Positions 3,986-54,625 of a stretch of DNA of 55,446 nt are shown one piece after another; within the stretch, counting starts at the first letter, position 1, and every line of letters begins with the position of its first letter. The stretch comes from Roseibium sp. TrichSKD4 (GTDB lineage: Bacteria; Pseudomonadota; Alphaproteobacteria; Rhizobiales; Stappiaceae): the NCBI RefSeq assembly GCF_000148725.1, contig NZ_GL476320.1, forward strand, positions 758,971 through 814,416. Reading direction: 5' to 3'. The position numbers were made by a program, and so were the translations under genes. Under the pieces are notes generated by a model. That model had not been told where the DNA came from and did not search any database. It saw only the letters and a program-made list of their open reading frames with translations.

Positions 3986-4010
3986 AGGGGGTCGGGTGTC
4001 CGGCCCCTCT
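3986..4010 (+). terminator. Weak hairpin after aspS
   Basis: AGGGG at 3986-3990 pairs with CCCCT at 4004-4008, with further CGG/CCG pairing inside, and the hairpin is followed by CTCTTGT. It could attenuate aspS transcription before the ABC exporter. The U-tract is poor, so read-through is likely. Confidence 0.3.
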
Positions 4011-4032
4011 CTTGTAATGAGGCGGGAATTTC

Positions 4033-5823
4033 GTGCTCAACACTGAAAAATGGCAGGTTTTTCAAGATCCTGACGGAACCTACCAGCTTATCAAACGGTT
4101 GCTGCGGGAAAACCTCCGCCAATATGCCTCCAAATATGCTCTGGCCTTCCTGTTCATGGGGCTTGTGGCTGCCTCCACGGCGGCCAGTGCATGGATCATG
4201 CGCGATGTGATCAATGAGATTTTCATCAGCCGCGATCCGAAGATGGTTTATCTGATTGCCGGCGTCGTGATGCTGATCTTTGCGATCAAGGGCGGTGCGA
4301 CCTATGGCCAGTTGGTGATCCTGAGCCGCATCGGCAATGCCATTGTGGCCGGTCTTCAGCGACGGTTGTTTGCAAAGCTTGCCCGGCAGGACATGGCTTA
4401 CTTTGACAAGACCGCCATGGGCGACGTTGTGGTGCGCATCAATCAGGGTGCCACGGATACGCGTACAGCGTTGGACATGGTGGTCGTAACGCTTGGCCGG
4501 GATGTGTTGACGCTTGTTGGTCTTGTCATCGTCATGTTGGCGCAGGACCCGACGTTGAGCCTGTTTGCGCTTTTTATCATGCCACCTGCAGTTATTGGCG
4601 TGACCTTTTTGGTCAAGCGTGTGCGCAAGCATGCCAAGCAGCAATTTGTTTCCACCGCCCAAATCATGTCGATCATTCAGGAAACCACCATCGGCATTCG
4701 CGTGGTCAAGGCATTTGGTGTTGAGACTGCGCTTGAGGACCGAATGGAAACAGCGGTCCGGGACGTTGAAAAGCAGGCTAACAAAATCGCAGCCTTGACC
4801 GCAAGAACATCTCCGCTGATGGAAACGCTCGGCGGCTTCGCCATCGCGCTGGTGATCCTTTACGGCGGTTATTCAGTTGTGAATCTGGGGCAGGACCCAG
4901 GCGCGTTTTTTGCCTTCATTACAGCGTTGCTGCTTGCCTATGACCCGGCAAAGCGACTTGCGCGCCTTCAGGTAAATTTGAACAAGAGCCTCGTTGGCGT
5001 GCGTTTGATGTACGAGCTGCTGGACGATAACACCGGGATGGACACGGCAGAAGGTGGCAGGGCACTTGCCGTGTCTGCGGGCAAGGTTGATCTGCGCGAT
5101 ATTGCCTTTTCCTACGGTGAAGGTGCAGCTCTCAAAAAACTGACACTGACCGCCGAGCCTGGAAAAATGACGGCCCTTGTCGGTTCCTCGGGTGCTGGAA
5201 AGTCGACTGCCTTTAGCCTGATCGAGCGGTTTTATGAACCGGGCAGCGGGCAGGTTTTGATTGATGATCAAGATGTCGCCAGGGTGCCGCTGGATAGCCT
5301 GCGTGAGCAGATCGCCTATGTGGGGCAGGATACGTTTCTTTTTGATATCTCAATTCGCGACAACATTACCATTGGGCGTCCGGACGCTTCACAGGCTGAA
5401 ATCGAGGAAGCGGCGCGCAACGCCAACGCGCATGACTTCATTCTCGAGCTGGAAAATGGCTATGACACGTTTGCGGGCGAGGGGGGCGGTCGTCTTTCCG
5501 GCGGTCAAAGGCAGCGTATAGCTATCGCCCGCGCCATGTTGCGGGACGCGCCGATCCTGTTGCTGGATGAAGCGACATCAGCCCTTGATGCTGAATCAGA
5601 ATCCAAAATTCAAGCCGCTCTCACCCGTTTGATGGAAGGCCGGACGACGCTCGTCATTGCACACCGGCTTTCCACCGTGCGCCATGCGGACTGTATCCAT
5701 GTTCTGGACAAGGGTGAAGTGGTGGAAAGCGGCACCCATGCAGAGCTCTTTGCCAAAGACGGCATCTATCGGCGTTTGGCTGAACTTCAATTTCAAGATG
5801 GAAAGTCGGACAACGCCGCTTAA
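4033..5823 (+). CDS. ABC exporter, fused membrane and ATPase domains (MsbA-like)
   Basis: This 596-residue half-transporter has an N-terminal six-helix membrane domain (about 25-340) followed by the nucleotide-binding domain. Walker A GSSGAGKST is at 384-392, the ABC signature LSGGQ at 488-492, and Walker B ILLLDEA at 508-514. A homodimer would export a lipid, peptide or drug-like substrate. The MsbA/lipid-flippase resemblance is general and does not fix the substrate. The start is GTG at 4033 behind GAGGCGGG. It lies 84 bases after aspS on the same strand, and is convergent with the next gene. Confidence 0.88.
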   Translation: MLNTEKWQVFQDPDGTYQLIKRLLRENLRQYASKYALAFLFMGLVAASTAASAWIMRDVINEIFISRDPKMVYLIAGVVMLIFAIKGGATYGQLVILSRIGNAIVAGLQRRLFAKLARQDMAYFDKTAMGDVVVRINQGATDTRTALDMVVVTLGRDVLTLVGLVIVMLAQDPTLSLFALFIMPPAVIGVTFLVKRVRKHAKQQFVSTAQIMSIIQETTIGIRVVKAFGVETALEDRMETAVRDVEKQANKIAALTARTSPLMETLGGFAIALVILYGGYSVVNLGQDPGAFFAFITALLLAYDPAKRLARLQVNLNKSLVGVRLMYELLDDNTGMDTAEGGRALAVSAGKVDLRDIAFSYGEGAALKKLTLTAEPGKMTALVGSSGAGKSTAFSLIERFYEPGSGQVLIDDQDVARVPLDSLREQIAYVGQDTFLFDISIRDNITIGRPDASQAEIEEAARNANAHDFILELENGYDTFAGEGGGRLSGGQRQRIAIARAMLRDAPILLLDEATSALDAESESKIQAALTRLMEGRTTLVIAHRLSTVRHADCIHVLDKGEVVESGTHAELFAKDGIYRRLAELQFQDGKSDNAA

Positions 5824-14640: not shown

Positions 14641-15105
14641 CTAGCTTTTGAGAACCGGAGTTTGGCCTTGGGCCAGTTTCAGCCGCGTCCAGAGGTTCAT
14701 ATTGATGACGATGGCCGCAATTTCCGCGATCTGCTTTTCATCAAAATACTCTGAAACGGTTTCATGTATCGCAGGAAAGCTGATCAAGTCATAGGCTGTC
14801 AGAGCTTCGCAATAATCCAATGCGGCCTGTTCTGCTTCGCTGAACAGGGTGCTTTCCTGCCAAGAGCCAAGGTGAGCGATCTTGGCCTTGTGTATGCCCT
14901 GATCTTCAGCCGCCTGAGTGTGCAGGATGAGGCAATAGGAGCAAGGGTTCATTTGGGCAACGCGAAGGCGAAGCAGCTGGGCGAGTTGCCCGTCGACTGA
15001 CAGGTCAGCCGTATATCCAACGGATTTAGCCATGTCCTTTGCGATGGAGTGAAACTCCACCAGGTCGGGGTCAAAGCGAGTGTTCTTGAAGTCGATGTCG
15101 TCCAT
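14641..15105 (-). CDS. AhpD-like carboxymuconolactone decarboxylase-family protein
   Basis: This 154-residue all-helical protein has the AhpD core: C55-S-Y-C58 followed by H62, in NPCSYCLILHTQAA. In AhpD the cysteine pair and the histidine relay electrons to a peroxidase or reduce alkyl hydroperoxides directly. The ATG at 15105 follows GGGAG and lies 2 bases after the stop of the glutaredoxin-GNAT gene. A longer frame to 15177 overlaps that gene and adds no family sequence. It is the last gene of the selO operon, which supports a role in thiol redox or peroxide handling. The true substrate is unknown. Confidence 0.88.
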   Translation of the reverse strand: MDDIDFKNTRFDPDLVEFHSIAKDMAKSVGYTADLSVDGQLAQLLRLRVAQMNPCSYCLILHTQAAEDQGIHKAKIAHLGSWQESTLFSEAEQAALDYCEALTAYDLISFPAIHETVSEYFDEKQIAEIAAIVINMNLWTRLKLAQGQTPVLKS

Positions 15106-15107
15106 GG

Positions 15108-15659
15108 TCAGTCTCCCAGAATGAATGTTGTTTGCCAGATTTCGTTTTCCCGAGCGATGTCTTGCAGGAACTTGCAAGGTAGCACCACGGTCCAGGACTG
15201 GCAGGCAAGGTATTGTAAAACCTCACGTGCAAAGGACTTCCCGAGTCCTTTTCCTCTCAGGTCTCCGGCAATTTCCATGTGGTCGAGAACAAGTTGATCA
15301 TTCTTGAGCCTGTATCTGGCAAAGGCGTCTGTTGGCGCCATGTATTTCAAGAATTTCTGTTGCTTTACATCATGCTGAAGGCCGGGGTCATAAAGCCCTT
15401 CACGAGCTAGGCGCTTGTCCAGCTCAGCCAGCTTCGGGTTGCGCAATTTCCGCCCCTTGATCTGGAACGTCGGAAACTTTGTTGCATCGCCTGTTAAAGC
15501 GGTCAGCCGTTCGGCCGCCGCTTCATCCTTGTCGACTTCGGCCAATTCATAAGGCAGGCCGCGCTCTTCAAGCGCAGCCTGATAAAACCGTGTCTTGTGG
15601 CATCTGACTTCGCCGAAAAGCGTTATTTCAGATGCCGCTTCGGAGGCAGAGTTACTCAT
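15108..15659 (-). CDS. Glutaredoxin-like domain fused to a YjdJ-type GNAT domain
   Basis: This 183-residue two-domain protein begins with a glutaredoxin fold (about 11-95). It has a single active-site cysteine in V-R-C20-H-K-T and a cis-proline loop TKFPTF near 60-65, so it is monothiol-like. The second part (about 110-183) resembles the short acetyltransferase family typified by YjdJ. It has LVLDHMEI, the acetyl-CoA loop RGKGLG at 135-140, and VVLPCKF around 158-164. The start ATG at 15659 overlaps the selO stop (ATGA), and its own stop is 2 bases before the AhpD-like start. Function is inferred only from the domains. Confidence 0.82.
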   Translation of the reverse strand: MSNSASEAASEITLFGEVRCHKTRFYQAALEERGLPYELAEVDKDEAAAERLTALTGDATKFPTFQIKGRKLRNPKLAELDKRLAREGLYDPGLQHDVKQQKFLKYMAPTDAFARYRLKNDQLVLDHMEIAGDLRGKGLGKSFAREVLQYLACQSWTVVLPCKFLQDIARENEIWQTTFILGD

Positions 15660-17137
15660 GTGCCACAAAAGGTTCGATAAGGACCGAAGTCCTTCGGAGC
15701 GGGCTTTGCATATGTTTCCAGTCCTTCGCGTTCCGTGAAGGGGTCTTTCAAGACCTGAACAAGCGATTGAGCTCGTTCGTAATTTCCGTTTTCCGCCTCC
15801 GCTAGCGCTTCTTCGACCTTGTGATTGCGCGGAATATAGATCGGATTGACAGCATTCATCCGGTTGGTGATTTCCTGAGTGGTTGCGGTTTCCAGCTGTA
15901 GCCGCGACTTCCAATGTTCGAACCAGTGGTCAAATGTCCCGCCATCTTTGAACAACGCGCGGGTTGAGGCCCCATCGTCACCCACTTCGGTCGCCAGTTG
16001 TCGGAAGAAGCCTGTGTAATCAACATCCTGACCTTTCATCGCCTCTGTCAGGGCATTGGCAAGGTCAATATCTTGTTCCAACTCGGTCGCAAGCCCCAGT
16101 TTGGCGCGCATTCCTTTCAACCATGCATCTTGGTAAAGGGCAGGGAAGGTGTTCAGAGCATTTGTCGCCTGCCGTACGGCGTCATCTGCATCGTCCGGAT
16201 TGATCAAGGGGACGAGGCATTCGGCAAGTCGTGCGAGGTTCCACTGCGCCAAAACCGGCTGCTTGCCATAGGCGTAGCGCCCTCCTTCATCGATAGAGCT
16301 GAACACCGCATCCGGATCGTAGCTATCAAGAAATGCGCAAGGACCATAGTCGATCGTTTCGCCGGAAATGGTCATGTTGTCGGTGTTCATGACGCCGTGA
16401 ACGAAACCGGCAAGCACCCAATTGGCAATCAGTTCTGCCTGCCGTGATATGACCCGAGAGAGCAGTTTGAGATACTTTTCCGGATCATCAGCAAGATCAG
16501 GGTCGTGGCGCGCGATGGTGTAATCTGCGAGCTGGCGAACCTTGTCGGTCTCGCCGCGGGCTGCAAAAAACTGGAAAGTGCCAACACGGATATGGCTGGA
16601 GGCAACCCGCGCCAGAACAGCACCGGGTTTATGACCCTCACGGAAAATGTCTTCACCGGTCGTAGTGGCGGCCAATGCGCGGGTGGTTGGTATGCCCAAG
16701 GCATGCATTGCCTCGCCCACGATATATTCGCGCAAAACTGGTCCGATGACGGCCTTTCCGTCGCCGCCTCGCGAAAACGGGGTGCGACCCGAACCCTTGA
16801 GGTGAAGGTCGCGCCGTTTGCCATGCGTGTCGATGATCTCCCCAAGCAGGATTGCACGACCATCGCCGAGCTGCGGAGAAAAATCGCCGAATTGGTGACC
16901 AGCATAGACTTGAGCCAGCGGGGCTGCACCATCCGGGCTGTGGGAGCCGGAAAGGTTTGCAGCGCCTTCGCTGGTGGCCAGCGCGGCTGGATCGAGCTTC
17001 AGTTCTCTGGCCAGTTCGTCATTGACGAGAACGGTTTGAGGAGATGGGACCTGCGCTCCTTCCCACGGCACATAAAATCCGCGCAGTTCACGGGCGTAAG
17101 TGTTGTCAAAGGTGAACTTGGGTGGGTGCGTCGTCAT
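15656..17137 (-). CDS. selO: Protein adenylyltransferase SelO
   Basis: This 493-residue SelO (YdiU/UPF0061) pseudokinase-fold enzyme transfers AMP from ATP to protein Ser/Thr/Tyr residues. Key sites: QLGDGRA at 89-95, LHLKGSGRTPFSRGGDG at 111-127 with the nucleotide-binding K114, NTDNM with D253 and the DFG-like D263-YG. The last two are ten residues apart, as in the E. coli enzyme. The protein ends in C491-G-T, where animal SelO carries selenocysteine and bacteria cysteine. The 5' end is separated from the upstream thioredoxin-fold gene by a terminator. Its stop overlaps the next start by four bases. In E. coli, SelO is reported to AMPylate glutaredoxin, which makes the neighbour notable. 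Confidence 0.95.
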   Translation of the reverse strand: MTTHPPKFTFDNTYARELRGFYVPWEGAQVPSPQTVLVNDELARELKLDPAALATSEGAANLSGSHSPDGAAPLAQVYAGHQFGDFSPQLGDGRAILLGEIIDTHGKRRDLHLKGSGRTPFSRGGDGKAVIGPVLREYIVGEAMHALGIPTTRALAATTTGEDIFREGHKPGAVLARVASSHIRVGTFQFFAARGETDKVRQLADYTIARHDPDLADDPEKYLKLLSRVISRQAELIANWVLAGFVHGVMNTDNMTISGETIDYGPCAFLDSYDPDAVFSSIDEGGRYAYGKQPVLAQWNLARLAECLVPLINPDDADDAVRQATNALNTFPALYQDAWLKGMRAKLGLATELEQDIDLANALTEAMKGQDVDYTGFFRQLATEVGDDGASTRALFKDGGTFDHWFEHWKSRLQLETATTQEITNRMNAVNPIYIPRNHKVEEALAEAENGNYERAQSLVQVLKDPFTEREGLETYAKPAPKDFGPYRTFCGT

Positions 17138-17183: not shown

Positions 17184-17217
17184 GAAAACCGACAGGAGGA
17201 CGAGACCTCCTGTCGGT
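17184..17217 (-). terminator. Rho-independent terminator
   Basis: A perfect 12-bp stem (17188-17199 with 17206-17217) is followed by TTTTC on the minus strand. It lies just after the thioredoxin-fold gene and separates it from selO, so selO needs its own promoter in 17138-17187 or relies on read-through. Confidence 0.88.
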
Positions 17218-17224
17218 TTATCTG

Positions 17225-17725
17225 TCAGGCTGTTTCCAGTTTTACGTCCTCAGCCCCGAGGGCTTCAATGAAACGCTTGGCATCCAGTCTGAAGTCCGCA
17301 AAAACAACCTTGCCGTCCGGGTCTATGACGGTGAACCAGGGCGTTCCCGCGGTTCGGTAGTCCTGCATAAAGGTTGGATAGTCTTCTCCTTCCAGCCGCA
17401 CATCATGGCCGAACGGGATTTTCAATCCATACTCTTCCTGATTGACCCGGAGTTTATCGAATGTGTTGACGTCTTCGTCTTCAAACACGGTCTGGATTAC
17501 AGCAAAGCCGAAACCCTTGTCCTTGAGCGCATTATGAAGAATGCGAAGGGTTGGAAACCCGCGAGAATGACAGCCCGGGCACCAATGCTGGAAGTTATAG
17601 ATGATCTTGTAGCCCTCTCCGAGGTCGGAGAGCTTTAGTGGCGTGTCCAACGGCGTCCCGTTGGCGTCAATCCAGTTTTGAACGCGAAGGTTCGGGGCGG
17701 TTTGGTGGAGGGAACCGAATTGCAT
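17225..17725 (-). CDS. Thioredoxin-fold protein with WCPGC site
   Basis: This 166-residue protein has an AhpC/TlpA-like thioredoxin fold. The active site W48-C49-P-G-C52 sits in NFQHWCPGCHSRGFPTL, and a cis-proline loop AGTPWFTVIDPDG lies near 126-138. No signal peptide is present, so it should work in the cytoplasm, unlike typical TlpA/ResA proteins. It could be a thiol-disulfide reductant or peroxidase-like protein. The two-residue spacing between cysteines favours a thioredoxin-type redox role. It is flanked by msrA and selO on the same strand, which places it in a redox-repair neighbourhood, and it ends at a strong terminator. The 236 bases up to msrA hold its likely promoter. Confidence 0.8.
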   Translation of the reverse strand: MQFGSLHQTAPNLRVQNWIDANGTPLDTPLKLSDLGEGYKIIYNFQHWCPGCHSRGFPTLRILHNALKDKGFGFAVIQTVFEDEDVNTFDKLRVNQEEYGLKIPFGHDVRLEGEDYPTFMQDYRTAGTPWFTVIDPDGKVVFADFRLDAKRFIEALGAEDVKLETA

Positions 17726-17961: not shown

Positions 17962-18468
17962 TTACTCCGCTGCTTCGCGTTTTGGCAGAACCCAACCCGG
18001 ACGAGGGAAGTGGCAGGTGTAGCCATTCGGGTAACGTTCCAGATAATCCTGATGCTCTGGTTCGGCTTCCCAGAAGTCGCCAACCGGCTCGACTTCTGTG
18101 ACAACCTTGCCCGGCCAAAGACCAGAGGCATCTACATCGGTGATTGTATCGTGAGCGACTTGCTTTTGCTCGTCATTCACATAGTAAATCGCCGACCGGT
18201 AAGACAGGCCTGTGTCATTGCCCTGACGGTTTTTGGTTGTCGGATCGTGGATCTGGAAGAAGAACTCCAGGATTTGCCGGTAGCTCAGCTTATCCGGATC
18301 GAAAACAATTTCGATGCCCTCCGCGTGTGTTCCGTGGTTTCGATATGTGGCGTTTGGCACATCACCGCCGGTATATCCGACCCGAGTTTTTTCGACGCCG
18401 GGGATCTTGCGGATCAGGTCCTGCATACCCCAAAAGCAGCCACCTGCAAGTACAGCACGTTCAGTCAT
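17962..18468 (-). CDS. msrA: Peptide-methionine (S)-S-oxide reductase
   Basis: This 168-residue MsrA reduces the S-epimer of methionine sulfoxide in proteins, using thioredoxin. The catalytic motif is GGCFWG with Cys11. Family stretches VGYTGG (31-36) and the acidic/histidine-containing [10 protein letters not shown] (near 48-57) are present. The N-terminus is short, so it is cytoplasmic. Its ATG overlaps the msrB stop by one base (TGATG), giving translational coupling. It belongs with msrB and probably the WCPGC protein downstream to a methionine-repair group. Confidence 0.96.
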
Positions 18469-29164: not shown

Positions 29165-29425
29165 TTTATCTACAAGCGTGAAAATTCTGTGTTTGCGTGA
29201 AAAATGAAGCTCTCAGGAAGTGGAAGACGCGAAATCGGTCCAACAATTGAACACGAACTGGCTCGTGACAAGTTTTGTAGTTTTGTGACTTTGAAACAGC
29301 ACATAAATTCTCGTTTGATTGTCAATTTTGACAGGTCTTAACCATCCCGCTTAAGTGAGCGGCAACACCTTCTGGTTACAACAAGAAGCAAATGTGTTTT
29401 TGCGTTGTTTCTGCGACGGGGGTGT

Positions 29426-31552
29426 ATGGAGTATCGGCGCGAAATAGACGGCCTTCGGGCTGTAGCTGTTGTGCCTGTGGTTCTGTTTCACAGCGGCATC
29501 TCGCTGTTTTCCGGCGGGTTCGTTGGTGTGGACGTTTTCCTCGTCATTTCCGGCTACCTAATCACCGTCATGATTTTGCAAGAGCGGGCAAGGGGCACCT
29601 TTTCGCTCACGAGGTTTTATGGACGCCGCGCCCGGCGTCTTGTCCCGGCCTTACTTGTAATGCTGTCCGTCAGCTTCCTGCTCGCTTGCGCGTGGATGCC
29701 GCCGAGCCAAATGAAGGGTTTTTCCCGGGCACTGGCCGCGTCGGCGCTGTTCGTCTCCAATATTCTTTTCTGGCGTGAGAGCGGGTATTTTGATCTGGAA
29801 TCCCAGACCAATCCGTTGCTGCATACTTGGAGCTTGTCGCTGGAGGTGCAGTTTTACGTTCTGTTTCCTGTGGTTCTGCTGCTGGGATTGCGCTTTGGCA
29901 GATCAAGAGTGTTCTGGCTGATTTTGGTCACATCACTGCTGAGCCTGGCGCTGACGGAATATGGTTGGCGATACAAGGCTTGGGCAAATTTCTATCTCCT
30001 GCCAACGCGGTTATGGGAGTTTTGCGCAGGGGGGTTGTGTGCCCTGTGGCTGAGCAACAGAGCGCAAAAGGGCAATAACATTCTGGCCTTCGCTGGATTG
30101 ATCGGGCTAGTGGTGTCGTTTTTCCTTTTCGACAAAGACACTCCTTTCCCATCCCTTTGGGCTTTGCTACCAGTGATGGGGACTGTGCTGCTGATCCTGT
30201 TTGGATCCAAAGATACGGTTGCAGGCCGGGTACTAGCCATGAAGCCGCTGGTGGGCATCGGGCTGATTAGCTACAGCATTTACCTCTGGCACCAGCCGCT
30301 GCTTGCTTTCCTTCGCATACGCTCGATTGATGAGCCGTCCACGCTCGCCCTGTTGCTGGCTGCGCTTGCAAGTTTCCCGATCGCTTATTGCAGCTGGCGA
30401 TTTGTTGAACAGCCGTTCCGCAAGGCAAAATCTGAAAAGGGTGCGGTCAAACTTGTTTCGCGAGGTTTGGTCACCGGCGTTTCTGCGTGTGCGGGCGTTG
30501 TATTTGTTGCAGCTGCTGGGGTGGTGACGGATGGCTATCGGTTCAGGTTTGCCCGAGAGCTGGTGGCCATTGATGACGCGCGTTCGGACGTCGCTTCTTT
30601 GATTTCTGACTGCTATATGGAGCCGCCGGCTGGCGGCGGAATGCCGCTCGGTCCCATGCCGCGCCCGGCGTGCACGTTTCCAGCGTCAGACGGATCTGTT
30701 GATGTTGCAATTGTCGGTGACAGCCATGCGCTCACCTTTTCAAACAAGGTGATCGACGCGCTGAAGCAACAGGATGTTGGAGTGACGACCATGTCGTTTG
30801 CTGCTTGCGTTCCCTTTGAAGGCTATTGGCATTCGCGGGCAAAATGTAACGAACCCGTTGCCGAGTTGGTCGAGTACATTCTTGCAAGCGATATCAATAC
30901 CGTGGTTCTGGCCGGTCGATATGCGCTCTACACGTGGGATGATCCATTTGACAACGGCGTTGGCGGGGTCGAGCCGGAGCATATGGGCCCGAAATATTTC
31001 ACTGATCCGCTCTATGAAGGTGACTATGACGACACGCTTGTGCCGAACATGCTTCATGTGATGGAGAAGGGAATCCAGAAGTATCTAGATGGCGGTAAAA
31101 ACCTCGTGCTCCTTTACCCGGTGCCTGAATCTGGTTGGTCAGTGCCTGATCGCTATTTTAAAGAGCGGCTTTACAAGACTGGTGTCGAAGACTTGTCGTT
31201 TCCCTATGCGGCCTTCAAAGAGCGCAACGGAGACGTGATTTCTTTTTTTGACAGTCTCGAGCACCCCGGTTTGAAGAAAGTTCGGCCCGCTGATGTTCTC
31301 TGCTCAAAAGAGGAGGGGCGGTGTCTCAATGCTGTTGGCTCAACAGTCTACTACTATGATGATGACCACTTGAGTAATGCCGGGGCCAGTTTGCTTGTGG
31401 AGCCAATTGTGCAACCCGTATTGGCGACACTGGCACCGCAAAAACAAATCGAAGATGGACCGCTATTGGCTGCCGGCCCGCAAAATAACTCAGTTTTTTC
31501 CTGGTCTATCCGTTTAACCCGTATTTACGATGATGAGATTGGTGTTCAATGA
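29426..31552 (+). CDS. Acyltransferase-3/SGNH two-domain protein, first copy
   Basis: This 708-residue OafA/YrhL-type protein has an N-terminal ten-helix acyltransferase-3 domain (about 1-340) that moves acyl groups across the membrane. The C-terminal periplasmic SGNH domain (about 380-690) would attach them to a glycan. Seen motifs: EYRREIDGLRAVAVVPVVLFH at the N-terminus (in outline), GDSH at 431-434 and DDDH at 645-648 for the SGNH catalytic set. The conserved SLxxEEQFY reads SLSLEVQFY, with V141 in place of the second Glu. The ATG at 29426 follows GGGGG. Its stop overlaps the start of the second copy (ATGA). The target is probably a surface polysaccharide. Confidence 0.88.
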   Translation: MEYRREIDGLRAVAVVPVVLFHSGISLFSGGFVGVDVFLVISGYLITVMILQERARGTFSLTRFYGRRARRLVPALLVMLSVSFLLACAWMPPSQMKGFSRALAASALFVSNILFWRESGYFDLESQTNPLLHTWSLSLEVQFYVLFPVVLLLGLRFGRSRVFWLILVTSLLSLALTEYGWRYKAWANFYLLPTRLWEFCAGGLCALWLSNRAQKGNNILAFAGLIGLVVSFFLFDKDTPFPSLWALLPVMGTVLLILFGSKDTVAGRVLAMKPLVGIGLISYSIYLWHQPLLAFLRIRSIDEPSTLALLLAALASFPIAYCSWRFVEQPFRKAKSEKGAVKLVSRGLVTGVSACAGVVFVAAAGVVTDGYRFRFARELVAIDDARSDVASLISDCYMEPPAGGGMPLGPMPRPACTFPASDGSVDVAIVGDSHALTFSNKVIDALKQQDVGVTTMSFAACVPFEGYWHSRAKCNEPVAELVEYILASDINTVVLAGRYALYTWDDPFDNGVGGVEPEHMGPKYFTDPLYEGDYDDTLVPNMLHVMEKGIQKYLDGGKNLVLLYPVPESGWSVPDRYFKERLYKTGVEDLSFPYAAFKERNGDVISFFDSLEHPGLKKVRPADVLCSKEEGRCLNAVGSTVYYYDDDHLSNAGASLLVEPIVQPVLATLAPQKQIEDGPLLAAGPQNNSVFSWSIRLTRIYDDEIGVQ

Positions 31553-33594
31553 ATTATCGGCGAGAAATAGATGGCCTTCGGGCCGTCGCCGTATTGCCTG
31601 TTGTTTTGTTTCATGGTGGTTTTGAAATCATGTCTGGCGGCTTCGCCGGGGTGGACGTGTTTTTTGTGATTTCAGGCTATTTGATCACTGCGCTCATCTT
31701 GGAGGACCTCGAAAAGGGCAGGTTCTCGCTGCTGTCCTTCTATGAGCGGCGTGCAAGGCGCATATTGCCTGCCTTGTTCGTCATGTTGGCGGTGTGTGCT
31801 GTGTTCGCTTTGCTCTGGATGCCGCCGAGCCAGATGATGTTCTTCTCCAAGGCCATGGCGGCAGTGGCTCTGTTTGCCTCAAACATGTTCTTCTGGCGCA
31901 ACAGCGGCTACTTCGATATTGGGTCTGAGAGCAACCCGCTGCTCCATACATGGAGCTTGGCAGTTGAAGAGCAGTTTTACATCCTTTTTCCGCTGTTCAT
32001 GATGCTGGTTTGGCGCTTTGGACGCCGCCCGCTTTTCTGGCTTTTGGTGATCTTTGCAATTGGAAGTTTGGGTCTTTCGGAGCTTGGGTGGCGGTACAAA
32101 GCGTGGGCCAATTTTTATCTGCTGCCGACACGGGCATGGGAACTGCTTGCCGGTTCGCTTTGCGCGGTCTGGCTGGCGTCAAACAAGAAACAGGACAATG
32201 ACCTGTTTGCGACAGTTGGTCTCGTTGCAATCCTGTTGTCTTTCGTTTTGTTTGATGCAGAGACGCCGTTCCCATCTCTTTGGGCGGCTGTGCCCGTCGG
32301 CGGAACCGTGCTTTTGATCCTATTTGCGGGGGCTGGCACGTGGACCGGGCGTCTCTTGTCACTCAAGCCCTTGGTCGGCATTGGTCTGATCAGCTACAGT
32401 GTTTATCTGTGGCATCAGCCGCTGCTTGCCTTCCTGCGCATTCGGTCGGTTGATACTCCGTCATCGGACATGTTGTTGCTGGCGGCTCTGGCGTCCATCC
32501 CAATTGGGTATTTTAGCTGGCGGTTTGTCGAGCGTCCGTGGCGAAATGGTTCCGGCAGTGCGTTTCGCTCCGTGCCAAGGCGGCGGATATTGGGGCTTTC
32601 GGCTGCAGGCTTGTGCGTTGTGCTTGGTTTTGGTGTAGCGGGTGCTACTCTCGAAGGCTTCCGAGGGCGATTTGAGCCGGGTCTATTGGCGATTGACGAT
32701 GCACGCTATGATAAATCACCCTTATCTGCGGGTTGTTATGTCGAAACCCCGGCTGGCGGTGGACTGAGCATAGGGGCCTTGCCGCGTTCTGAGTGCACAT
32801 TTCCAGCCGCGGACGGGTCTGTTGATGTTGCCATCCTCGGTGACAGTCATGCGGATTCAGTTGCCTATCCGGTCATGAAGGCGCTTCAAGAGGCAGGCGT
32901 GGGGGTAACTACTTTATCTCTGGCTGCCTGTGTTCCGTTTGAGGGATATTGGCACACGCGAGCCCGGTGCGATGAAACTGCAGCGCAAGTGCTGGACTGG
33001 GTGCTGAACAGCGATATCAAAACCATTGTGCTTGCTGGTCGGTATTCGCTTTATGTCCGTGATGACAGTTTCGATAATGGTATCGGCGGTGTCGAAACGG
33101 ATCAGATGGGCCCGAAGACCTTTTACCAGCCATTGGTGCGAGGGCAGACCGCCGATGCAACTCTCGCCAACGGTTTGCACGTTTTCCGAAACGGTATCAG
33201 GCGTTATCTGGACGCCGACAAAGAGGTGGTTCTTGTCTATCCAATCCCGGAGGCCGGGTGGTCTGTTCCAGATCGCTTTTTCAAGGAGCGATTGGTCGAC
33301 CCATACAAAGATCAACTGGCAATCCCTTATGCGGCCTTTGTTGATCGCAATGACGCCATTATCAAACTCTTCGATACGATTGAGGCTGACGGGCTGACCA
33401 AAGTGAAGCCCCATGAGACGTTCTGTGATCAAGAGGCTGGGCGTTGCTTCAATGCGGTTGGTGACACCGTTTACTACTATGATGACGACCATCTCAGTAC
33501 CGCAGGTGCGTCGCTTCTGGCTGATCAGATCGTTTCGCCTATTTTGAAAAGCCTCGCCAAAAACAAGGTTCAGACAATCTCCTTTGCGAGATAG
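31549..33594 (+). CDS. Acyltransferase-3/SGNH two-domain protein, second copy
   Basis: This 681-residue paralogue of the preceding protein is close to it along nearly its whole length and has the same spacing of motifs: RREIDGLRAVAVLPVVLFH, SLAVEEQFY with E140-E141 intact, GDSH at 431-434, and DDDH near the C-terminus. Four-base overlap with the first copy implies one transcript and coupled translation. This copy keeps the full acyltransferase consensus, so it is the better candidate for the active transporter half. Both probably O-acylate (for example acetylate) an exported glycan. The window has no polysaccharide cluster to name the target. Confidence 0.9.
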   Translation: MNYRREIDGLRAVAVLPVVLFHGGFEIMSGGFAGVDVFFVISGYLITALILEDLEKGRFSLLSFYERRARRILPALFVMLAVCAVFALLWMPPSQMMFFSKAMAAVALFASNMFFWRNSGYFDIGSESNPLLHTWSLAVEEQFYILFPLFMMLVWRFGRRPLFWLLVIFAIGSLGLSELGWRYKAWANFYLLPTRAWELLAGSLCAVWLASNKKQDNDLFATVGLVAILLSFVLFDAETPFPSLWAAVPVGGTVLLILFAGAGTWTGRLLSLKPLVGIGLISYSVYLWHQPLLAFLRIRSVDTPSSDMLLLAALASIPIGYFSWRFVERPWRNGSGSAFRSVPRRRILGLSAAGLCVVLGFGVAGATLEGFRGRFEPGLLAIDDARYDKSPLSAGCYVETPAGGGLSIGALPRSECTFPAADGSVDVAILGDSHADSVAYPVMKALQEAGVGVTTLSLAACVPFEGYWHTRARCDETAAQVLDWVLNSDIKTIVLAGRYSLYVRDDSFDNGIGGVETDQMGPKTFYQPLVRGQTADATLANGLHVFRNGIRRYLDADKEVVLVYPIPEAGWSVPDRFFKERLVDPYKDQLAIPYAAFVDRNDAIIKLFDTIEADGLTKVKPHETFCDQEAGRCFNAVGDTVYYYDDDHLSTAGASLLADQIVSPILKSLAKNKVQTISFAR

Positions 33595-51361: not shown

Positions 51362-52912
51362 TTGGGGCGGGCAGGCACGTTGAAGCCGTTCAAGAACACA
51401 AAGAGATATCGCGGACCGGCTCTCGATAAGGATCTGGACAAGATTGCCTATGTCGAAGGGGCAGCGGACAGTCTCGGGCGACGTCTTGTTGCGCCGGGTT
51501 TGGCGCTTGTATTTATGGCATTTTGCGGCTTTGCCGCGTCTTATCAGCTTGATTTCCTGACGAATTCTAATGCCATCATCCTCTTCTTTGCGGCCGTGAT
51601 CGGTGCCTATATGGCGTTGAATATCGGGGCAAATGATGTTGCCAACAACGTCGGTCCTGCAGTTGGGGCCAAAGCGGTCAGCCTAAAGACAGCTCTTGTT
51701 TTGGCAGTTGTTTTTGAATGTGCAGGCGCTCTGCTCGCGGGCGACAAGGTGCTGGATACGGTGGCAACCGATATCCTTCCGCTTGCGTCGGGCTTGGAGC
51801 CTGAGCTCTTCATGACAGCGATGATGTCGGCATTGATCGCTTCCGCTGTCTGGATCCACATTGCCACGTATATTGGCGCACCGGTTTCAACCACCCATTC
51901 AGTGATTGGCGGGATCGTTGGCGCAGGGATTGCAGCTGCAGGCTGGTCAGCGCTTAGTTGGCCGGTAATCGGTGCGATCATCGCAAGTTGGGTGTTTTCG
52001 CCATTGCTCGGAGCTTTGGTTGCTGCAGCGTTTCTCTGGTTTATCAATGCCATGATTGTTGATCGTGAAAATAAGCTTGCTGCAGCGCGGTTCTGGCTGC
52101 CTATCTTGATTGGCGGTATGATTTTTGCCTTCAGTGCTTTCTTCTTCATCAAGGCTCTGGACCGAATTCTTGTCGTTCATTGGGCGCTGGCTTTCCTGAT
52201 TTCTGCACTTTTGGGAGGAATTGCGTGGATGGTCAGCGGTCCGCTGATTGTCCGGCAGACTTTTGGACTGGAAAACCGGACGCAATCTTTGAAGAAACTG
52301 TTCGTCTGGCCGCTGATGGGAGCTGCATCAGTCCTGTCGTTTGCACATGGGGCCAATGATGTAGCAAACGCTGTTGGACCGGTTGCTGCCATTGTGGAAG
52401 TTCAGCGCGCGCAGGCGGCTGTATTTGACCCGTGGGTGTTGGCTGAGTCTGGCGCGAAAATGCCGATTTGGGTGAGCGCGATTGGCGCGTTTGGTATCTC
52501 GCTCGGGTTGCTGTTGTTTGGTCCGCGTCTCATTCGTGTGGTTGGGCAGCGGATTACCAAGCTCAATCCCATCCGCGCGTTCTGCGTTTCCCTTTCAGCG
52601 GCTGTCACGGTCTTGCTGGCGACCAGTTTCGGCTTGCCCGTCAGCTCCACCTATATTGCGGTAGGGGCAATCTTCGGCGTTGGTTTCTATCGTGAATGGC
52701 GGCGGGACAGAAAGCGGTCTGCCGGCTCGCATTTTCGCGGGTTGGTAAGCGGTGGACGCGGGGTTCGGAACAGGGAAGCGCACCAAAGACGGCTACTTGT
52801 TCGCCGGTCTTATCTTCTGACAATTGTCGGTGCCTGGATCGTAACCGTCCCGATTGCAGCTGCGCTTGCGGCCCTGACTTACAGGGTCATTCTGATTTTT
52901 GTCGAAATTTGA
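51362..52912 (+). CDS. Pit-family inorganic phosphate transporter, first copy
   Basis: This 516-residue PiT-type transporter has about 11 membrane helices. The two family signature repeats are GANDVANNVGPAVGAKAVSL (N-half) and AHGANDVANAVGPVAAI (C-half). Pit proteins carry phosphate or sulfate with a cation. A cytoplasmic loop rich in Arg follows near residues 440-480. The start is uncertain: TTG at 51362 opens the frame, a TTG at 51380 is also possible, and neither has a strong ribosome site. A close paralogue follows 219 bases downstream. Confidence 0.85.
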   Translation: MGRAGTLKPFKNTKRYRGPALDKDLDKIAYVEGAADSLGRRLVAPGLALVFMAFCGFAASYQLDFLTNSNAIILFFAAVIGAYMALNIGANDVANNVGPAVGAKAVSLKTALVLAVVFECAGALLAGDKVLDTVATDILPLASGLEPELFMTAMMSALIASAVWIHIATYIGAPVSTTHSVIGGIVGAGIAAAGWSALSWPVIGAIIASWVFSPLLGALVAAAFLWFINAMIVDRENKLAAARFWLPILIGGMIFAFSAFFFIKALDRILVVHWALAFLISALLGGIAWMVSGPLIVRQTFGLENRTQSLKKLFVWPLMGAASVLSFAHGANDVANAVGPVAAIVEVQRAQAAVFDPWVLAESGAKMPIWVSAIGAFGISLGLLLFGPRLIRVVGQRITKLNPIRAFCVSLSAAVTVLLATSFGLPVSSTYIAVGAIFGVGFYREWRRDRKRSAGSHFRGLVSGGRGVRNREAHQRRLLVRRSYLLTIVGAWIVTVPIAAALAALTYRVILIFVEI

Positions 52913-53131
52913 TTCGGGCAAAATAGAAAACGGTTTTGAAGCTCTGAGATAAAAAGTGGCACTCAGTTCGCTTAATCTTTGACTGTAAGTATAGTTGGCT
53001 AATATTTATCTATGATTGCGTATTTTTCCAATTGAACTTTTCATGGAATCCGGTATCGCCGGGAGGGAAAAACTATCGTTGTGCTGGCGCATCGAGCAAC
53101 AGCGCATCTTCCAGCCGGATGAATATTCGTA

Positions 53132-54625
53132 ATGACCAGCCCTCAAAAGCCGACGCTCGATAAAGACCTCAAGAAACTTAGCCAGCTAGAAGATGCGACT
53201 GCGGGCCTCGGGCGCCGACTTGCCGCTCCTGGCATCGCGTTTCTTTTCGTTGTTGTGTGTGCGGTGGTTGCTGGGTCTTTGATGTACGACGCTGCGGGTG
53301 GAGTTGTCATCATCGCAGCTGCTGCCATCGGCGCTTATATGGCGCTCAACATTGGCGCGAATGATGTAGCCAACAATGTCGGCCCTGCGGTTGGATCCCG
53401 CGCAATGACCCTTGTAACAGCGCTGATCATCGCGGCGGTGTTTGAAAGTGCAGGGGCGTTGATTGCAGGTGGTGATGTTGTTGGGACGATTTCAAAGGGG
53501 ATCATTGACCCTGCATCCGTCTCCAGCCCGTCTGTGTTTATGTCTGCCATGATGGCAGCGCTTGTGGCCTCTGCGCTCTGGATCAATCTGGCGACTTGGA
53601 TTGGGGCTCCTGTATCCACCACGCATTCGATTGTTGGTGGGGTGATGGGAGCGGGCATTGCGGCTGCTGGCTTTTCTGCGGTGAATTGGGTCACCATGAG
53701 CAGCATTGCAGCCAGCTGGGTTATTTCGCCGGTTCTGGGCGGTGTAATTGCTGCGCTGTTTCTCGCCTTCATCAAGACGTTCATTATTTATCAGGATGAC
53801 AAGATTGCAGCCGCGCGCCGGTGGGTCCCGGTCCTGATTGCCATTATGGCAGGCGCATTTGCAGCCTATCTGGCCATGAAAGGCCTGAAAAAGCTCATCA
53901 AGGTTGATCTTCTGCTGGCTGTTTCCATCGGTTTTGGCGTGGCTATTTCTGCTTGGGTGATCACCCGTCCGCTGATTGCCAAACAGTCAGAAGGGCTGGA
54001 AAACAGAAACCAATCCTTGCGGAAATTGTTCGGTATTCCGCTGATTTGTTCTGCTGCGCTTTTGTCGTTCGCACACGGTGCCAATGATGTGGCCAATGCG
54101 GTGGGTCCGTTGGCGGCGATTGTGCACACCGCGGGGATTGGTGAGGTTGCTGCCAAGGTTACCATTCCGCTTTGGGTGATGGCCGTCGGCGCACTTGGCA
54201 TTTCCTTCGGTTTGTTGTTGTTTGGGCCGAAGCTGATCAACATGGTCGGCCAGCAAATCACCAAGCTGAACCCAATGCGCGCTTACTGCGTTGCGTTGTC
54301 AGCCGCCATAACCGTGATCATTGCATCCGCACTCGGGCTTCCGGTGTCGTCAACCCACATTGCGGTGGGGGCTGTGTTCGGGGTGGGGTTCTTCCGCGAG
54401 TGGTATACGGAAAACTCCAAACGGCGTTTGGCCTATATCGAAAAGCACACAGGCGCTCAGGAGTACAAAAGACGTCCTCGTGAAGACCGGGTCGATCAAG
54501 CGCGCCGCAAACTCGTCCGGCGCTCGCATTTCATGACGATTGTTGCAGCCTGGGTGATCACTGTTCCCGCGGCAGCCATCCTGTCCGCCGGGATTTATCA
54601 CATCTTGGTGCGGTTTATTGCTTGA
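53132..54625 (+). CDS. Pit-family inorganic phosphate transporter, second copy
   Basis: This 497-residue paralogue of the preceding transporter has the same repeat signatures (GANDVANNVGPAVGSRAMTL and AHGANDVANAVGPLAAI) and the same C-terminal Arg-rich loop (RRPREDRVDQARRKLVRRSH). It has about 11 helices. Two copies in a row suggest different affinities or substrates (phosphate and perhaps sulfate), or differing regulation, but this is inference. The ATG at 53132 has no clear ribosome site. The 219-base gap upstream shows no terminator I can identify. Confidence 0.87.
   Translation: MTSPQKPTLDKDLKKLSQLEDATAGLGRRLAAPGIAFLFVVVCAVVAGSLMYDAAGGVVIIAAAAIGAYMALNIGANDVANNVGPAVGSRAMTLVTALIIAAVFESAGALIAGGDVVGTISKGIIDPASVSSPSVFMSAMMAALVASALWINLATWIGAPVSTTHSIVGGVMGAGIAAAGFSAVNWVTMSSIAASWVISPVLGGVIAALFLAFIKTFIIYQDDKIAAARRWVPVLIAIMAGAFAAYLAMKGLKKLIKVDLLLAVSIGFGVAISAWVITRPLIAKQSEGLENRNQSLRKLFGIPLICSAALLSFAHGANDVANAVGPLAAIVHTAGIGEVAAKVTIPLWVMAVGALGISFGLLLFGPKLINMVGQQITKLNPMRAYCVALSAAITVIIASALGLPVSSTHIAVGAVFGVGFFREWYTENSKRRLAYIEKHTGAQEYKRRPREDRVDQARRKLVRRSHFMTIVAAWVITVPAAAILSAGIYHILVRFIA

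Follow-up and report, generated by a model that had tools for sequence, protein, structure and literature searches.

In the described genomic neighbourhoods of SelO, a family of protein adenylyltransferases, the methionine sulfoxide reductase gene msrB is over-represented, as passages of one study state (Dudkiewicz 2012, PMC3281104), and a glutaredoxin of Escherichia coli is reported, in passages of other work, to be AMPylated by SelO at Tyr13 in the active site (PMC8097203), a modification that limits deglutathionylation (PMC8097203, PMC12663964). The physiological partners of bacterial SelO are unsettled, and a compact transferable module that includes selO would offer a small testable set of candidates together with a phenotype to look for. 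The locus considered here lies in a stretch of 55,446 nucleotides (the window) of Roseibium sp. TrichSKD4 (contig NZ_GL476320.1, positions 758,971 to 814,416), in which selO is followed by a gene for a fusion of a glutaredoxin-like with a GNAT domain and by a gene for an AhpD-like protein.

We read these three genes as the downstream part of a redox-repair module that is restricted to certain lineages and composed of msrB, msrA, a redoxin gene with the motif WCPGC, selO, the fusion gene and the AhpD-like gene, with SelO as a presumed stress-state regulator of several enzymes that is not dedicated to the fusion, and assign this reading a probability of roughly 0.55. The set in the window is a pared-down version of a stress-repair gene set, longer versions of which are found on plasmids and other mobile DNA. 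The original prediction of a thiol-redox operon under control of AMPylation is half right, in that there is a mobile redox module that extends beyond the genus, in which selO is one of several genes that travel together.

Carriers of the fusion and mobility of the cassette

A full-length fusion is encoded in 10 records other than the window, 7 genome contigs and 3 plasmids, from about five lineages (single records are given as L numbers where needed). The genome loci (three Paracoccus, one Falsigemmobacter, one Defluviimonas and two metagenome-assembled genomes named Rhodobacteraceae) derive from a scan of 84,980 species genomes that needed exact short peptides, so that distant relatives may have escaped, and the plasmids (two of Phaeobacter gallaeciensis and one of Aeromonas caviae) are the 3 of 47 records in a plasmid search that cover at least 80% of the fusion. 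In all ten (7/7 genome loci, 3/3 plasmids) selO precedes the fusion gene on its strand, and the AhpD-like gene follows it immediately, in contact with it; the block msrB-msrA-redoxin-selO is present in nine and not visible in the tenth, a short contig with a partial selO (L005). The three plasmid cassettes all possess genes for a LysR regulator, MsrB, MsrA, the redoxin, SelO, a flavin reductase, the fusion, the AhpD-like protein, an antiporter and a second MsrA. Identities between module proteins of the window and their counterparts in L001, L007, L008 and L009 range over 58-86%.

With respect to mobility, L001 shares 98.5-99.99% identity over 15.1-16.5 kb with each of L002, L003, L004 and L006, and these five genomes belong to three genera (Paracoccus, Defluviimonas and Falsigemmobacter). 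The near identity across genera therefore indicates that the L001-type cassette is mobile and was recently transferred. A near-identity plasmid search with the first 14 kb of L001 recovered no copy of the cassette, only four matches to the msrA region.

The predicted order of the three genes thus persists beyond the genus as to the upstream position of selO and the downstream position of the AhpD-like gene, but the direct contact of selO with the fusion gene does not, being restricted to the window (0/10 other records). In each of the ten a gene for a flavin disulfide reductase, annotated on the plasmids as mercuric reductase, intervenes, some records also having there a gene for a 202-residue protein without a Pfam family. 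Where the junctions were read, in L001, L008 and L009, the reductase and fusion genes overlap. If contact means partnership, SelO is a weaker partner candidate than the reductase and the AhpD-like protein.

Genome samples were searched at class, family and phylum level; they overlap, and scoring was confined to the top few candidates of each genome. In these samples the fusion profile, at E 1e-10, matched the genome at the centre and no other (0/384 in the class and 0/393 in the family sample), and a profile for redoxins with the active site CHKT, the type found in the fusion, likewise matched only the centre genome (0/397 others in the phylum sample). The redoxin at E 1e-20 matched 1 of 248 other genomes, there beside msrA and with no selO match in 16 kb. 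SelO, on the other hand, is present in 144 of 149 genomes of a family sample, the genome at its centre possessing two, a cassette copy 63% and another copy 53% identical to SelO of the window. Twenty selO regions were fetched from the family, the best 19 by score outside the cassette together with the other, non-cassette copy in the centre genome; three of these regions lie on contigs below 9 kb. None of the 20 has a match to the fusion or the AhpD-like protein; msrA is near selO in six (five within about 60 bases, one 2.4 kb off), five of which also have msrB. No relative of the fusion is encoded in 76 viral contig stretches matching a pattern. Anti-phage defence was rejected as a function, with no PADLOC match at E 0.001 for any of the four proteins scanned.

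The operon in the window

The features of the locus are the following.

15656..17137, minus strand, selO, protein adenylyltransferase family, 493 amino acids (PF02696, 407 bits)
15108..15659, minus strand, glutaredoxin-like/GNAT fusion, 183 amino acids (PF14542, PF00462 and a structure model, see below)
14641..15105, minus strand, AhpD-like protein of the carboxymuconolactone decarboxylase (CMD) family, 154 amino acids, CSYC motif (PF02627, 44 bits)
17225..17725, minus strand, WCPGC redoxin of the AhpC-TSA/Redoxin superfamily, 166 amino acids, which adjoins msrA and selO in other islands
17962..18468, minus strand, msrA, methionine-S-sulfoxide reductase, 168 amino acids
18468..18911, minus strand, msrB, methionine-R-sulfoxide reductase, 147 amino acids
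13612..14583, plus strand, LysR-type regulator, convergent with the operon, nearest to OxyR by profile (202.8 bits, cut-off 329)
17186..17219, between the redoxin gene and selO, perfect inverted repeat with 14-nt arms and a 6-nt loop, probable terminator

The tight coupling of selO, the fusion gene and the AhpD-like gene was confirmed by reading the junctions directly in the window, selO and the fusion gene sharing an ATGA overlap (CACATGAGT) and the fusion and AhpD-like genes being separated by a 2-base gap (TGA-CC-ATG). The genes msrB, msrA and the redoxin gene share the strand of this trio. The trio is probably a transcription unit of its own, apart from msrBA and the redoxin gene, because a perfect 14-bp hairpin stands between the redoxin gene and selO. 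The intergenic region folds with -26.8 kcal/mol (z -7.1; 0/200 shuffles equal), and TTTTC follows the stem on the minus strand, counted from the stem end. A simple terminator scan, which reported 6 sites in total against a shuffle mean of 5.5, did not include this hairpin. Beyond the AhpD-like gene a second hairpin is present (-26.3 kcal/mol, z -6.0).

The LysR protein aligns with GYQL where the compared chains have GHSL, which places a glutamine at the supposed peroxidatic position; the later cysteine is kept. We take the aligned position to be that of the peroxidatic cysteine of OxyR and the GHSL chains to be Cys-to-Ser forms. This glutamine rules against a canonical OxyR, and the LysR protein is possibly a sensor of something other than peroxide. 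Of the proposed AMPylation-controlled thiol-redox module, the redox setting stands, with msrB, msrA and the WCPGC redoxin gene on the same strand; two points to correct are the OxyR-like regulator, with its glutamine, and the extent of the operon, given the hairpin between the redoxin gene and selO.

Two further pairs of neighbouring frames on the plus strand of the window, alike by eye, are apparent tandem duplications, namely two large membrane acyltransferase-like frames of 715 and 681 amino acids (29405-33594) and two phosphate-transporter-like frames of 516 and 497 amino acids (51362-54625).

SelO, the fusion and the AhpD-like protein

SelO of the window has the SelO domain over its full length and scores above the cut-off of NF000658 (561.7 bits, cut-off 431) and below both SelO equivalog cut-offs (443.1 of 850 and 418.1 of 900). 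Residues K114, E137, R177, R184, N254 and D263, the counterparts of the catalytic and nucleotide-binding K, E, two R, N and D of PsSelO, are kept in the window protein and in all 33 SelO sequences aligned. Also found in 33 of 33 are Cys267, in the motif DYGPC, and a C-terminal Cys491, in the motif (F/Y)CGT (FCGT in the window); the SelO chains of E. coli and P. syringae have a phenylalanine at the place of Cys267. Judged from the alignment, the two cysteines could constitute a candidate redox switch on SelO activity. In a SelO tree of 33 rows, with SH-aLRT support only and with the near copies L002-L004 and L006, the partial L005 and L078 left out, the fusion carriers fall in two places, the window and a Phaeobacter plasmid with three msr-linked selO genes (support 96) and L001, L007 and L009 together (99).

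With respect to the fusion, PF14542 (Acetyltransf_CG) scores 48.9 bits, above its gathering cut-off of 30, and PF00462 scores 22.8 bits, just below its gathering cut-off of 22.9; one stand-alone redoxin relative passes the Pfam glutaredoxin cut-off with 31.1 bits. In a predicted structure (mean pLDDT 88.4) residues from about 9 to 93 match glutaredoxin/NrdH folds, and residues 92-180 match the CoA-binding GNAT At1g77540 among solved structures. The glutaredoxin-like half may accordingly be described as marginal by sequence and backed by the modelled fold. Glutaredoxins are characterized by a CxxC or CxxS active site and a GG glutathione-binding motif. The fusion has neither CxxC nor CxxS, its active site reading C20-H/P-K22-T23, and K-x-R-N-P stands at the expected place of the GG motif. 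Lys22 is present in all six aligned sequences, in which T23 and Y26 are invariant as well. In the GNAT half, Cys162 aligns with a cysteine of At1g77540. The redoxin half is the better conserved, with 78-83% identity among fusions compared to 58-60% for the whole protein.

The AhpD-like protein exceeds the cut-off of TIGR00778 (37.7 bits, cut-off 27.8) and carries a CxxC in the form of CSYC; its closest solved chains are those of PA0269, deposited as hypothetical protein or CMD family protein.

Related plasmid islands

The other 44 plasmid records recovered with the fusion cover part of the query, the 37 listed all matching the redoxin half. In the seven of the 44 viewed, gammaproteobacterial plasmids which are copies of two sequence types and not seven independent cases, the motifs C-H-K-T ... 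F-P-T ... K-K-L-R-N-P were present throughout (7/7), the gene lies directly after msrB, and no selO match was found in the stretch. A CMD protein and a DUF417 protein, a member of the RclC family, are encoded nearby in L011 and L012, DUF417 being confirmed by profile for L012. These settings link the CHKT redoxin with islands rich in Msr genes and possibly concerned with reactive chlorine, rather than with SelO. On a Raoultella plasmid (L077) a CHKT redoxin frame is present unannotated near 4001-4222. A selO-free stretch of a Citrobacter plasmid (L010, 1891-5978) contains relatives of the cassette LysR, msrB, msrA and the 202-residue protein, pointing to gene exchange between island types.

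A plasmid search with SelO gave 89 records, from which, besides the fusion carriers, nine annotated contexts were picked by hand and one unannotated record was viewed. The genes msrA, selO and msrB follow in this order in four of the nine (Klebsiella IncC, P. aeruginosa, Aquincola and Comamonas); three of these four have an annotated redoxin gene between msrA and selO, and all four have a second redoxin-like match between selO and msrB. In three of the four a flavin reductase gene and, after sulfite-oxidase-like and FAD-oxidoreductase genes, egtB are found, egtD being visible in two. In this second island type the redoxin is about 55% identical to that of the window and the reductase about 54% identical to that of L001. 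The unannotated record, from Pseudorhodobacter, has msrA before selO. The gene content of the plasmids L066, L072 and L079 comprises msrA, selO, msrB, an alpha/beta hydrolase-OsmC fusion gene, a DUF427 gene, a flavin reductase gene, a sulfite-oxidase-like gene and the ergothioneine gene egtB, and in L072 and L079 two WCPGC-type redoxin frames surround selO. These related selO-msr islands in beta- and gammaproteobacteria suggest that a SelO-linked capacity for oxidant repair is itself mobile cargo.

Working mechanism and nature of the stress

From gene order, operon spacing, mobility, domain folds and conserved residues we infer the following mechanism. MsrA and MsrB would repair oxidised methionines, and the WCPGC redoxin, the AhpD-like protein and the CHKT half of the fusion would pass electrons among the Msr enzymes, low-molecular-weight thiols and, in the longer cassettes, the dedicated flavin disulfide reductase. 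For the GNAT half of the fusion we propose that it binds acetyl-CoA or CoA and perhaps modifies or senses a partner. SelO would act as a regulator under the same stress by AMPylating a number of redox or metabolic enzymes, possibly with Cys267 and Cys491 as its gate.

Our best guess for the stress is reactive chlorine, because one version of the cassette carries an RclC-family gene together with the Msr genes. In L001 and its four near copies this gene, between the redoxin gene and selO, encodes a DUF417 protein, which in L001 scores 65.4 bits for DUF417 (cut-off 27) and reaches 57.5 bits of the 275 required by the RclC equivalog model. The L001 reductase has as best NCBIfam model the FAD-containing oxidoreductase PRK06370 (552.8 of 629, also below cut-off) and as best solved-structure match 6kgy, which we take to be E. 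coli RclA.

Several observations weigh against this reading. L007, L008 and L009 lack the RclC-family gene, and an identity of the L001 reductase with RclA was rejected at 306.8 bits of an equivalog cut-off of 740. The window has no match to the cassette flavin reductase, the 202-residue protein, an FAD protein, the RclC-family protein, the second MsrA or the antiporter. No msr match was found near selO in 14 of the 20 family regions fetched, some of them short contigs, nor in five of the nine plasmid contexts (Deinococcus, Aquabacterium, Nitrosococcus, Eleftheria and Martelella). A single SelO clade of fusion carriers was likewise rejected, the tree requiring 3 label changes, at least 2 of them forced by starred branches.

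Alternative explanations

The alternative that survives best is that unrelated oxidative-stress genes were gathered into operons on mobile DNA as mere cargo, with SelO, the fusion and the AhpD-like protein having no biochemical link. The cassettes indeed vary in accessory gene content and order, genes for CorA, an antiporter, a phospholipase D and a glycosylase ride along, and the SelO tree does not group the fusion carriers. The order msrB-msrA-redoxin-selO-fusion-AhpD is nevertheless kept, with insertions, among carriers whose fusions are 58-84% identical, as is the contact between the fusion and AhpD-like genes in all ten other records, and we hold the cargo explanation to be a serious minority option, with odds of around one in four.

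Less probable, and rather unlikely on balance, is that the fusion acts mainly as an acetyltransferase, whose GNAT half would acetylate the redox partner or a small thiol, with the CHKT domain only delivering it to the partner. The redoxin half is the better conserved one and keeps Cys20, and stand-alone relatives of the redoxin lack a GNAT half, both of which argue against this reading.

The claim of the original prediction that the fusion is a dedicated substrate of SelO, which would switch its thiol-redox activity by AMPylation, has fared worse and is improbable. It draws on the shared operon with its ATGA overlap, on the co-location of the two genes, which in the ten other records share a strand and are no more than about 2.1 kb apart, on the conservation of all six SelO residues checked and on the reported glutaredoxin target of SelO. 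Tyr13 of this target lies within a CPYC motif. The known acceptor is missing in the fusion, where Lys22, a lysine shared by all six sequences of the alignment, takes the position of the tyrosine, although from the alignment other Ser, Thr or Tyr residues such as T23 and Y26 are possible AMP acceptors. The reductase gene between selO and the fusion gene in all ten others and the CHKT redoxins beside msrB with no selO match in the seven stretches viewed argue further against dedication, and selO is near-universal in a family sample and the fusion very rare, which means that SelO does not need the fusion.

Least of all do we expect a CoA-using redoxin, in which the GNAT half, with its conserved Cys162, would hold CoA beside the single-cysteine CHKT half and add CoA to or remove it from protein or Msr thiols, recharged in the mobile cassettes by the flavin reductase and with a redox-gated SelO switching the module, even if such a CoA counterpart of glutaredoxin would be a new kind of redoxin.

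Comparison with known systems

Among the literature matches listed, judged on titles and the openings of abstracts, no description of a mobile selO-msr-fusion cassette or of a glutaredoxin-GNAT fusion was recognised, which is weak evidence of novelty. As in the window, selO stands beside methionine sulfoxide reductase genes in the SelO neighbourhoods, enriched in msrB and peroxidase genes, that are described in passages of Dudkiewicz 2012 (PMC3281104) and of ProFaNA (PMC10364804). Unlike in the window, the neighbourhood passages of these two sources mention no glutaredoxin-GNAT fusion, AhpD-like gene or mobile cassette; the word "acetyltransferase" is absent from both main texts and "glutaredoxin" occurs once, in PMC3281104.

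The plasmid islands of the type msrA-grx-msrB-CHKT redoxin (Acinetobacter, Shewanella, Citrobacter and others) have in common with the cassette the CHKT/KxRNP redoxin subfamily and the Msr setting, but the redoxin stands alone and the stretches viewed are free of selO. With the reactive-chlorine resistance genes rclA and rclC the cassettes share the DUF417 membrane protein in the L001 type and an RclA-related flavin disulfide reductase in all 10, whereas both cassette proteins remain under the NCBIfam equivalog cut-offs and the window matches neither.

The fusion resembles mycoredoxin Mrx1 and NrdH-type redoxins in the fold and in the L-x-NP stretch that follows the cis-Pro in Mrx1, and mycoredoxin is its best NCBIfam match. 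It differs from them in the active site (CxxT instead of CxxC), in the additional GNAT domain and in a profile score that is far too low (31.5, curated cut-off 89.5). The GNAT half has the fold of the minimal GNATs of the COG2388 type, At1g77540 and YjdJ, and the cysteine in common with At1g77540; the solved chains of this type are single-domain proteins of 89-103 residues, whereas the GNAT domain here is joined to a redoxin.

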